From contig JAOAAJ010000073.1 of assembly GCA_026418935.1 (NCBI GenBank), positions 1 through 64,000 on the forward strand: a stretch of DNA of 64,000 nucleotides, given 5' to 3'. Below are positions 18,464 through 61,510 of the stretch, piece by piece. Source of the DNA: Caloramator sp. Its GTDB lineage: Bacteria; Bacillota; Clostridia; Clostridiales; Caloramatoraceae. The notes below the pieces were generated by a model. That model saw only the letters and a list, made by a program, of their open reading frames with translations. It was not told the origin of the DNA and searched no databases. The first letter of the stretch is position 1, and the number at the start of each line of letters is the position of its first letter. Both the position numbers and the translations under genes were made by a program.

Positions 18464-18507
18464 TGTTGACAATGTTTATTAAAGAATATATTATATAATA
18501 AGAGTGG

Positions 18508-18634
18508 TTAAAGGGGAGTAGCTGCCCGCTTTGGGTTGATAAAGTCAACATACTGGCCTTTGGCCTGGCTTTATCGGACGTTCGTCAAGTGAGACCTTTA
18601 ACACAATGCTTTGCATTGTGTTAAAGGTCTTTAA
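18508..18634 (+). promoter_or_regulatory. yybP-ykoY (manganese) riboswitch with terminator
   Basis: AAAGGGGAGTAGC...GTCAACATACTGGCC...GGCTTTATCGGACG...GAGACCTTT aptamer core; terminator GACCTTTAACACAATG-ctttg-CATTGTGTTAAAGGTC. Confidence 0.92.
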
Positions 18635-18668
18635 TTTTGTATAAAATAAAAAAGAAGGAGGAATGTAT

Positions 18669-19337
18669 ATGGCATTACTTAAAGCATTTTTATTTGTACT
18701 TGTTGCAGAAATGGGAGATAAAACACAGCTCCTTGCTATGGCCTGTGCAAGTAAATATAAACTTAAGCAGGTTATTACAGGTGTGTTTGCAGCAACACTA
18801 CTTCTAAATGCTCTTGCTGTTTTAATTGGAACATATCTTGGAAGTTATATCAAATTTGAGTATGTAAAATTTGCAGCAGCCTTTCTATTTATAGGTTTTG
18901 GACTGTGGGGACTAAAGGAGGAAGAAGAGGAAGAAAATGTTGAAGGAGAAGCTTGTAGCTTGAAGGAGGATAGGTTTGGTCCAATTATAACAGTAGGAAC
19001 AACTTTTTTCTTAGCGGAGCTTGGAGATAAGACACAAATAATGACTTTAACCTTTGCTGCACAAGAAAAGGCACCAATATTGGTTTTAATAGGTGCAACA
19101 TTAGGTATGATAGTAGCAGATACTTTAGGAATAGCAGGAGGAACATTAATATCTAAATATCTTCCAGAAAAGTATATAAAGCTTGGAGCAGCATTCATAT
19201 TTATTGTATTTGGTATTACAACCCTCTATGAAGTTTTACCAGTTAAGCATTTAACAGTAACTAATCAAGTAATTTTCTATGTAGTTTTAATTCTACTTGT
19301 TTATTTAATAGGTTTTAGAAGAAAAAATGAAAAGTAA
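18669..19337 (+). CDS. TMEM165/GDT1 (UPF0016) family cation exporter
   Basis: Two E-x-G-D-K-T motifs: VAEMGDKTQLLAM and LAELGDKTQIMTL. Confidence 0.93.
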   Translation: MALLKAFLFVLVAEMGDKTQLLAMACASKYKLKQVITGVFAATLLLNALAVLIGTYLGSYIKFEYVKFAAAFLFIGFGLWGLKEEEEEENVEGEACSLKEDRFGPIITVGTTFFLAELGDKTQIMTLTFAAQEKAPILVLIGATLGMIVADTLGIAGGTLISKYLPEKYIKLGAAFIFIVFGITTLYEVLPVKHLTVTNQVIFYVVLILLVYLIGFRRKNEK

Positions 19338-45207: not shown

Positions 45208-45597
45208 ATGTCAAAGCAGGATGTTAAAGAAAATATACCAATAATCTATTTAAAATCAATTATAAGAGGAATAATATTATCAATTGTTTTACTTTTAATT
45301 ACAGCTATAGTATTCCATTATTCTAATTTAGATCCAAAACATATAGATACAGTAACATTTATAATAACAGTACTTAGTATTGTATATGCATCTTTATATG
45401 GTTGTTTTAAAATTAAAACAAAGGGATATCTACATGGTGGAGTAATAGGAGTACTTTATATGGTTGTTGTTGGAATGGTATCCTTGTTTGTACAAAAGGG
45501 TAATATTCATTTTAGAGGATTAATCATTATGCTCATTATGTCATTGGCTATAGGTATTTTCTCAGGACTTATAGGAATTATATTGGCAGACAAATAA
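45208..45597 (+). CDS. TIGR04086-like four-TM membrane protein
   Basis: Hydrophobic 129 aa; YLKSIIRGIILSIVLLLI...YASLYGCFKIKTKGYLHGGVIGVLY; adjacent to SCIFF locus. Confidence 0.78.
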   Translation: MSKQDVKENIPIIYLKSIIRGIILSIVLLLITAIVFHYSNLDPKHIDTVTFIITVLSIVYASLYGCFKIKTKGYLHGGVIGVLYMVVVGMVSLFVQKGNIHFRGLIIMLIMSLAIGIFSGLIGIILADK

Positions 45598-45724
45598 AAA
45601 GAAAAATTGTCATAGCTAAGTTAATATTAACATTTTATGCACAAAATACTTTTTACTCTTGAGTATAGACATTTGTTATGTTATAATCATAAAAGTGTAA
45701 AGCATAAAAAAAGGAGGAGTAGAC

Positions 45725-45865
45725 ATGAAGCATATAAAGACAATAAACATGGGTGCTCTTAAGAACAGCATAGCAAAACCAGGATGCAAAGAGTGTGCAA
45801 ACTCATGCCAATCAGCTTGTAAAACTTCTTGTACAGTTGCAAATCTTGAATGCGAGAATAGATAA
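45725..45865 (+). CDS. scfA: SCIFF (six-cysteine) RiPP precursor peptide, 46 aa
   Basis: MKHIKTINMGALKNSIAKPGCKECANSCQSACKTSCTVANLECENR; SD AAGGAGGAG; absent from ORF track due to size; followed by maturase. Confidence 0.95.
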   Translation: MKHIKTINMGALKNSIAKPGCKECANSCQSACKTSCTVANLECENR

Positions 45866-45872
45866 TCTATGG

Positions 45873-45896
45873 CAGTAACTTATGTTACTGCTTTTT
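45873..45896 (+). terminator. Intergenic hairpin between SCIFF precursor and maturase
   Basis: GCAGTAAC-ttat-GTTACTGC-TTTTT. Confidence 0.75.
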
Positions 45897-45923
45897 AACT
45901 ATAATATAAGGAGGAAAAAAACG

Positions 45924-47282
45924 TTGAAATTACACAAATTTAAACAAATGGAAATGAACATAGTAATAGACGTAAATAGTGGAGCAATTCATGTTGTTGA
46001 TGATATAGTGTATGATGTTTTAGATTATTATAAATTTAAAAACTTAGATGAAATTGTTTCAGATTTTAAAAATAGATATACTGAAGAACAAATAAAAGAA
46101 GCATACGATGAAATAAAGCAGTTAGAGGAAGAAGGTCTTCTTTATACATATGATCCATATAAAAATATAGTATTAAATGATAATGGACCATCATATATAA
46201 AGGCTATGTGTTTAAATATAGCACACGATTGTAACCTAAAATGTAAATACTGCTTTGCTTCAGAGGGGGATTATAAGGGTGAAAGAAAGCTTATGTCTCC
46301 TGAAGTAGGTAAGAGAGCAGTAGATTTTGTTATAGAAAACGCTGGTCCAAGAAAAAACGTTGAGATTGACCTATTTGGTGGAGAACCATTGATGAATTTT
46401 AAAACTGTTAAAGAAATTGTAGAATATGCAAGAAAAAGAGAAAAAGAAACAGGAAAAAATATAAGATTTACAATAACAACAAACGCTACATTACTTAATG
46501 ATGAAATAATGGAATTTATTGATGAAAATATGGGAAATGTAGTTTTAAGCATAGATGGAAGAAAAGAAGTTAATGATAAAATTAGAATAAGATATGATGG
46601 TACTGGTACCTTTGATGATATATTACCTAAAATAAAGACAATGGTAGAAAAAAGAAAAGACGGCAAACAATATTATGTGAGAGGAACATTTACAAGAGAA
46701 AACCTTGATTTTTATAATGATGTTATGATGTTAGCAGATGAAGGCTTTAAGGAAATATCAATTGAACCTGTTGTTCTTGAAGACAAGCATCCCCTTTCAT
46801 TAAGAGAAGAGGATTTAGATACAATATTTGAACAATATGATAAATTAGCAGAAGAAATAGTCAATAGGCAAAAACAAGGCAAAGGATTTAAATTTTATCA
46901 TTTCAATATAGATGTTAACGGAGGACCTTGTGTATATAAAAGGATATCAGGCTGTGGCGCAGGATATGAATATGTTGCTGTAACTCCAGATGGAGATATA
47001 TATCCTTGCCATCAATTTGTTGGAAATGAAGAATTTAAATTAGGAAATGTATTTGATGGTTTATCAAATTATGAACTTATAAAAACCTTTAAAAATGGAC
47101 ATATATATAATAAGCCAAAATGTATGGAATGTTGGGCAAGATTCTATTGTTCAGGAGGATGCCAAGCTAATAACTACAGCTTTAATAAAGATATACACAT
47201 ACCATATGAACTTGGATGTCAAATGATGAAAAAGAGGGTTGAGTGTGCAATAGCTATAAAGGCTAAACTTATGGAGGAATAA
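45924..47282 (+). CDS. scfB: SCIFF radical SAM maturase (SPASM)
   Basis: CNLKCKYCFASEG radical SAM motif; GCGAGYEYVAVTPDGDIYPCHQFVG and CMECWARFYCSGGC auxiliary cluster motifs; TTG start after AAGGAGG. Confidence 0.95.
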   Translation: MKLHKFKQMEMNIVIDVNSGAIHVVDDIVYDVLDYYKFKNLDEIVSDFKNRYTEEQIKEAYDEIKQLEEEGLLYTYDPYKNIVLNDNGPSYIKAMCLNIAHDCNLKCKYCFASEGDYKGERKLMSPEVGKRAVDFVIENAGPRKNVEIDLFGGEPLMNFKTVKEIVEYARKREKETGKNIRFTITTNATLLNDEIMEFIDENMGNVVLSIDGRKEVNDKIRIRYDGTGTFDDILPKIKTMVEKRKDGKQYYVRGTFTRENLDFYNDVMMLADEGFKEISIEPVVLEDKHPLSLREEDLDTIFEQYDKLAEEIVNRQKQGKGFKFYHFNIDVNGGPCVYKRISGCGAGYEYVAVTPDGDIYPCHQFVGNEEFKLGNVFDGLSNYELIKTFKNGHIYNKPKCMECWARFYCSGGCQANNYSFNKDIHIPYELGCQMMKKRVECAIAIKAKLMEE

Positions 47283-47284
47283 AT

Positions 47285-47785
47285 ATGATAAGAAACTATT
47301 TTGAAAAACTTCCTAAAATTGCACAGGATGTATTTGTTGCTGAATCAGCAGATATTATAGGTGACGTAGAAGTAAAAGAAGGAAGTAGTATATGGTATAG
47401 AGCAGTTTTGAGAGGAGATATAAATAAAATTTCTGTTGGTAAATGTGTTAATATACAGGATGGTTGTGTTTTACACTCTGATAAAAATGCTCCAACAATA
47501 ATTGGGGATTTTGTTACAATAGGACATAATGCAATAGTTCATGGTGCACAGGTTAAGGATAGATGCCTTATTGGAATGGGGGCTGTTATATTAAATGGAG
47601 CAGTTATAGGAGAAGATTCAATAGTAGCAGCAGGTTCTGTAGTTACACAGGGAAAAGAAATGCCTCCAAAAAGCTTGATAATGGGGACCCCAGCAAAGGT
47701 TATAAGACAGCTTACAGATGAAGAAGTTGATCATATAAAGCAGTCAGCGATGAATTATTTGAGCCTTGCTCGAGATTACAAATAA
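47285..47785 (+). CDS. Gamma carbonic anhydrase family protein
   Basis: Left-handed beta-helix; RAVLRGDINKISVGKCVNIQDGCVLH; IGHNAIVHGAQVKDRCLIGMGA. Confidence 0.95.
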   Translation: MIRNYFEKLPKIAQDVFVAESADIIGDVEVKEGSSIWYRAVLRGDINKISVGKCVNIQDGCVLHSDKNAPTIIGDFVTIGHNAIVHGAQVKDRCLIGMGAVILNGAVIGEDSIVAAGSVVTQGKEMPPKSLIMGTPAKVIRQLTDEEVDHIKQSAMNYLSLARDYK

Positions 47786-47889: not shown

Positions 47890-48549
47890 ATGGTTACATT
47901 AAAGGATGTAAAAAATAATGAAGAAGTAAGAGCTTATATGGAACAGGGTGATAAATTTTTAGGATCAATGGGATTTACTGAACACAGCTTAAGACATGCA
48001 ACCATAGTATCTAATATTGCTTCTAATATCTTAAGAAATTTAGGATATTCTGATAGAGAAGTTGAACTTACAGCAATTGCAGGTTTTTTACACGATATTG
48101 GAAATGTTGTGAGTAGACATGACCATGGACAGACTGGTGCAATACTTGCAATGAGAATATTAAAGGAAATGGGAATGGAATACAATGAAATTGCATATAT
48201 TGCTTCAGCAATAGGTAATCACGAAGAAGAGTATGGTCATCCTGTAAATGATATTGCGGCTGCACTTATTATAGCAGATAAAACAGATGTACATAGAGGG
48301 AGGGTGAGAAACAAGGAATTTGCAACATTTGATATACACGACAGAGTTAACTATGCAGCAGAAAAGTCAGAAGTAGAAATTATTAAAGATGAAAGGATTA
48401 TAAGATTGAATCTTAAAATAAATATAGAAATCTGTCCAGTGATGGAATACTTTGAAATCTTTTTAGCAAGAATGATGATGTGTAGAAAGGCTGCTGCATT
48501 TTTAAACACAAACTTTCAACTTGTAATTAACGATGCACGATTGTTGTAA
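47890..48549 (+). CDS. HD domain-containing phosphohydrolase
   Basis: GFTEHSLRHA...GFLHDIGNVVSRHDHG...GNHEEEYG. Confidence 0.92.
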   Translation: MVTLKDVKNNEEVRAYMEQGDKFLGSMGFTEHSLRHATIVSNIASNILRNLGYSDREVELTAIAGFLHDIGNVVSRHDHGQTGAILAMRILKEMGMEYNEIAYIASAIGNHEEEYGHPVNDIAAALIIADKTDVHRGRVRNKEFATFDIHDRVNYAAEKSEVEIIKDERIIRLNLKINIEICPVMEYFEIFLARMMMCRKAAAFLNTNFQLVINDARLL

Positions 48550-61197: not shown

Positions 61198-61290
61198 AAA
61201 GTTATTAAATTATAATAAAATAAAAGTATATTACTTGACAGCTTATATTTGTATTTGTATAATAAAGCTAAAATTTATATTTAAATACTA

Positions 61291-61510
61291 TGAAGGGGAA
61301 GAGTAGTTTCCAAACACTTTACAGGGAGAAACTGCCTTTGATTGAGAGCAGTTTTAAAGTTAAGGGAGATGAAGGACACCCTGGAGTTTGTACCTGAATT
61401 AAGTAGGGATACACGCATTCTGCGTTAAAGAATTAAGTGGGCTATGCCAATTAGGGTGGCACCGCGGGAATAATACCCGTCCCTTGCTTTAGGGACGGTT
61501 TCTTTTTTGA
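61291..61510 (+). promoter_or_regulatory. T-box leader of hisS-aspS
   Basis: AGGGTGGCACCGCGGG T-box sequence at 61453; terminator CCGTCCCT-tgcttt-AGGGACGG-TTTCTTTTTT; specifier region GGACACC at 61374. Confidence 0.95.

Follow-up and report, generated by a model that had tools for sequence, protein, structure and literature searches.

A SCIFF ranthipeptide operon from the Caloramator/Thermobrachium group and a conserved hairpin between its precursor and maturase genes

Described SCIFF systems and the operon in the window

SCIFF peptides and their maturases have been described before, as has their presence in nearly all Clostridia (PMC8326336, PMC8172795). Both thioether formation and a role in cell–cell signalling have been reported for relatives (PMC8326336, PMC8172795, PMC8102284). 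A crosslink from Cys32 to Thr37 or Thr34 has been reported for CteA of the CteA/CteB pair (thermocellin; PDB 5wgg/5why) from Clostridium (Acetivibrio) thermocellum, and a Cys32–Thr37 thioether for Tte1186a of the Tte1186a/Tte1186 pair from Caldanaerobacter subterraneus (PMC8326336); published accounts disagree on which residue is the SCIFF crosslink acceptor (PMC8326336). According to the citation of Chen 2020 in PMC8102284, gene disruption in C. beijerinckii led to the proposal of a signalling or sporulation role, and C. ljungdahlii was studied as well.

The window, by which we mean the whole stretch of 64,000 nucleotides that was analysed, comes from a 2.01-Mb draft genome with a single scfA copy. 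This genome falls within the Caloramator/Thermobrachium group, its nearest named relatives by ScfB identity being Caloramator proteoclasticus (95%) and Thermobrachium celere (91%). Both curated models and synteny identify the locus as a SCIFF ranthipeptide operon. The scfA gene (45725–45865, + strand) starts with ATG and encodes 46 residues ending in ...KPGCKECANSCQSACKTSCTVANLECENR, with cysteines at positions 21, 24, 28, 32, 36 and 43; this is the peptide that a sequence-only reading had described as missing from the ORF track, an absence that its length would explain, 46 residues being below a usual 60-residue ORF cut-off. The six cysteines lie within about 45 residues that include Cys32, Thr34 and Thr37. 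The translation matches TIGR03973 with 78.3 bits (E 2.9e-22; cut-off 50 bits) and PF13165 with 77.1 bits (E 9.3e-22; cut-off 27 bits), both above cut-off, so that the ORF is not due to chance, and this upholds the earlier assignment as a SCIFF precursor. A leader of about 20 residues precedes the six-cysteine core, and residues 1–21 align with the CteA leader (PDB 5wgg_B); this alignment is weak (E 0.052), as expected for 21 residues. The host peptide shares with CteA the leader pattern MKHIK..N...LK.S....GC as well as the six-cysteine layout, the latter being common also to Tte1186a by its published description. By analogy with CteA, mature ScfA would be a ranthipeptide with a non-alpha thioether (PMC8326336). 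Of the two names in the earlier "sactipeptide/ranthipeptide-type" label, ranthipeptide is that of the current class.

The scfB gene (45924–47282, +) encodes a predicted radical SAM/SPASM maturase of 452 residues that aligns end to end with CteB (PDB 5wgg, E 2.6e-188), the two gene pairs being of the same type. It scores 687.9 bits against TIGR03974 (cut-off 425) and matches PF04055 and PF13186, and its score of 740.6 against the exception model NF040492 (not_ScfB, which describes ScfB-like orphan maturases) lies below the cut-off of 855; these profile results identify it as a bona fide ScfB. The radical SAM motif CNLKCKYC (CxxxCxxC) places cysteines at 103, 107 and 110, and the full set of SPASM cysteines occupies positions 344, 362, 400, 403, 409, 413 and 432, in agreement with the maturase and motifs originally proposed. 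The start is probably the TTG at 45924, preceded by a Shine–Dalgarno sequence in the GGAGG region (45910–45914, +), and not the ATG at 45882 of the mechanical ORF, which sits within the loop of the hairpin described below and would give 466 residues. TTG is the commonest scfB start among relatives (51 of 80 loci), and scfA starts with ATG in 74 of 80.

The gene order queA–tgt–TIGR04086–scfA–scfB–secD is widely kept: among 74 loci with full flanks, queA, tgt and secD are each present in 66 and TIGR04086 in 58. In the window the conserved neighbour, a TIGR04086/DUF3792 membrane protein recognized by profile matches and found in 62 of 80 related loci, is encoded at 45208–45597 (+). Two genes between scfB and secD, encoding a gamma-carbonic-anhydrase-like hexapeptide protein (47285–47785, +) and an HD-domain protein (47890–48549, +), are a local feature of close relatives (3 of the 74 loci). 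Upstream of scfA, a consensus scan detected a promoter-like site, TTGAGT-17-TATAAT with a TG before the −10 (45659–45687, +; 10 of 12 matches). Shuffled sequence contains sites of this kind about equally often, making this one a candidate only, and conservation of an scfA promoter found no support: the consensus appears in 9 of 78 loci, a control region giving 3. Elsewhere in the window, in ordinary arrangements, a T-box leader (RF00230, 130 bits; 61281–61487, +) stands upstream of an ORF resembling histidyl-tRNA synthetase (61534), after which comes one resembling aspartyl-tRNA synthetase, and a Mn2+ riboswitch (yybP-ykoY, RF00080, 50.2 bits; 18501–18631, +) precedes an ORF for a GDT1/UPF0016-like membrane protein (18663–19337).

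Core sequence across Clostridia

SCIFF was found in 111 of 112 related genomes and in 322 of 388 genomes sampled across the class Clostridia, bearing out the near-universality stated in the sequence-only reading. The suggestion that KPGCKEC may be a variant of the usual core needs refining: in 80 named loci from Clostridiaceae and relatives, the core reads PGCKECANS in 74, PGCRECANS in 3 and other forms of the same type in 3, so that PGC(K/R)EC is the ordinary form of the Clostridiaceae/Caloramator lineage and not peculiar to the host. In other Clostridia families GCGEC is present in all 72 readable loci, mostly as GCGECQTS. The host core, PGCKECANS...TVANLECENR, differs from the GGCGECQTS...TVANQSCE type of those families.

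Natural five-cysteine SCIFF precursors, in which Cys36 is replaced by alanine (KTSATVAN), occur in 6 of the 80 loci, namely L036:2807, L037:2807, L038:2803 and L039:2807 (Caloramator, Fervidicella), L106:2782 and L111:2765. These six, like the other named loci, retain Cys32, Thr34 and Thr37, which published work has assigned to crosslinks (PMC8326336, PMC8172795). The C. beijerinckii and C. ljungdahlii operons (L098 and L080) share the six-cysteine core type and the hairpin stem of the host; knock-out data exist for these two species, those of C. beijerinckii linking SCIFF to sporulation and Agr in the account given by PMC8102284, whereas the host is known from sequence alone.

A hairpin between scfA and scfB

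Between the scfA stop and the scfB Shine–Dalgarno sequence lies a hairpin (45871–45892, +) that is absent from the sequence-only reading. It reads G-GCAGTAAC-TTAT-GTTACTGC-T followed by TTTTAACTAT; its arms, taken at full length, are GGCAGTAAC-TTAT-GTTACTGCT, then TTTTAAC, and the 8-bp stem considered below is GCAGTAAC/GTTACTGC. Of 200 shuffled versions of the scfA–scfB intergenic region, 199 fold less well than the native sequence (z −3.75). A scan for GCAGTAAC-N(3-15)-GTTACTGC gave a single hit in the 2.0-Mb genome and hits in 76 of 112 related genomes, most of which have exactly one copy, placed directly after scfA; the reversed pattern, used as a control, is present in 1 of 112. As an unbiased measure of stem sharing, we counted all perfect 8-bp stems with loops of 3–15 nt in 80 orthologous loci (574 kb): the GCAGTAAC/GTTACTGC stem is present in 71 of them, and the next most shared stem, its own shifted versions aside, in 7.

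Nine loci lack the exact stem. In three (L056, L065, L081) both arms survive, separated by insertions of up to ~70 nt in the loop; of the others, one (L082) shows a compensatory change from G-C to A-U, one (L100) carries a single G-U and one (L111) has a shifted stem with G-U pairs, leaving two decayed stems (L048, L099) and one locus with none (L058). In L109 the stem is retained 167 nt past the scfA stop, beyond an insertion. The loops of the scfA hairpin range from 3 to ~70 nt, and the retention of both arms over these spacings argues for an RNA stem and not a DNA operator. Inserts in or next to the loop (L056, L065, L081, L109, L209, L214) often have an inverted repeat of their own and are possibly MITE-like elements.

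Pair counts over 38 distinct sequences showed six of the eight inner pairs to be invariant, an invariance that is partly selection because the sequences were picked from loci in which the motif is intact or only slightly altered. The outer pair next to them is formed in every sequence, as GC in 16, AU in 14 and GU in 8. Time has thus sufficed for compensatory change at the outer pair, and the inner stem seems, from these sequences, to be held by something beyond pairing.

Hairpins at this place are not confined to one family. We compared the 90 nt after scfA with the 90 nt before it and found a hairpin stabler than 95% of shuffles after the gene in 74 of 80 Clostridiaceae loci (before it, 7 of 79) and in 58 of 72 loci from other Clostridia (before it, 1 of 27), the median z after scfA in these 72 being −3.12. 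The stems of other families occupy the same place with a different, family-typical sequence: f9, for example, has GAAGGGC/GCCCTTC, f29 has GCAGCG/CGCTGC, and f28, f55 and f77 have AGTGAAA types. In the comparison with the CteA/CteB system, the GCAGTAAC stem of the host stands against the AGTGAAA type of f28/f55. By pattern count, the exact Clostridiaceae stem is close to background beyond the Clostridiaceae/Caloramator order, turning up in about a dozen of some 373 genomes there, against 7 of 388 for a control pattern.

Scattered GCAGTAAC/GTTACTGC hairpins away from scfA were seen in a few related genomes (L203–L208); several resemble ordinary terminators with T runs after the stem, and one lies shortly past the end of an apparent tRNA gene. 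A regulon built on the repeat was rejected, as most genomes have one copy of the repeat and it almost always lies at scfA, and these further copies are scattered and in several cases terminator-like. A search of Rfam 15 returned no match for the hairpin, its single hit being a chance-level one on the other strand elsewhere (E 3.7). In a literature search that most subscription papers lay outside, we found no description of SCIFF with a hairpin, and the literature searched held nothing relevant on an inverted repeat of the nisA–nisB type.

Role of the hairpin

Intrinsic terminators and attenuators occur between RiPP precursor genes and those for their modifying enzymes. As in such systems, the stem-loop here stands right past the precursor stop with the enzyme gene downstream on the same strand; the host hairpin differs in a stem that is nearly invariant across Clostridiaceae and in a U tract that is often poor. 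In the window the stem is directly followed by a U tract (TTTTTAAC), and a plain intrinsic terminator fits both the window and many families. Against it, the tail is mostly only moderately U-rich, 59 of 71 loci having 4–5 T in 7 and the other 12 being poor, with 2–3 T, so that termination is not certain and processing or stabilization of the scfA mRNA is a serious candidate too. We interpret the element as most likely an attenuator or processing hairpin that would set precursor above enzyme. Taken as a whole, a SCIFF operon of a Caloramator/Thermobrachium-group bacterium with a hairpin setting precursor over enzyme is probably the right account of the locus. Counting against it are the few occurrences of the GCAGTAAC/GTTACTGC stem elsewhere as an apparent terminator, the dispute over the crosslink acceptor (PMC8326336) and the recovery of the scfA promoter consensus in so few loci (9 of 78 only).

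In the mechanism we propose, ScfA would be translated from its ATG start, and ScfB would bind its leader through an N-terminal recognition domain. The radical SAM and SPASM clusters of ScfB would, by homology and on the model of CteA/CteB and Tte1186a, form the thioether from Cys32 to Thr37 or Thr34. The hairpin past the scfA stop would end or stabilize most transcripts after scfA, yielding far more precursor than enzyme, and the weak TTG start of scfB would act in the same direction. The constraint on the Clostridiaceae stem sequence suggests that something may recognize it.

That recognition could be the main role of the hairpin, which would then be a protein-binding RNA element, for instance through ScfB autoregulation or a dedicated factor, acting on scfB translation or on the decay of scfA mRNA, termination being a lesser effect. 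The near-invariant inner 8 bp beside a freely covarying outer pair, the U-poor tail in several species and the arms retained around large loop insertions (L056, L065, L081) all favour this account, but it has no candidate binder, and the different stems of other families with the same gene pair imply that binding by ScfB would vary by lineage; we consider it rather unlikely. Far less probable is a DNA operator for a dimeric regulator, to which a perfect, near-invariant inverted repeat found mostly once per genome would be suited: dimer operators require fixed spacing, the repeat lies downstream of scfA with no recognizable promoter there, and the widely varying spacer led us to reject it. Sactipeptide and ranthipeptide-type maturases also serve bacteriocins, and the SCIFF product might on that ground be a diversifying bacteriocin instead of a conserved signal or cell function. 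We judge this very improbable, given a core almost invariant across dozens of species, the nearly universal single-copy occurrence of SCIFF and the presence of neither a transporter nor an immunity gene adjoining scfA/scfB.

The SCIFF system itself is already known, and this operon, one among hundreds already modelled, adds little. The hairpin that we favour as setting precursor over enzyme offers a defined and readily mutated point of entry to the control of SCIFF expression. More tentatively, it may be a previously undescribed RNA structure shared by Clostridia, with a Clostridiaceae form, GCAGUAAC/GUUACUGC, that is read by sequence by a trans-acting factor coupling SCIFF precursor and maturase production, a proposal we hold as possible and short of probable. 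Nearly all Clostridia retain SCIFF, yet little is known of what the peptide does, and if the stem is indeed recognized by sequence, its binder could lead to SCIFF physiology.
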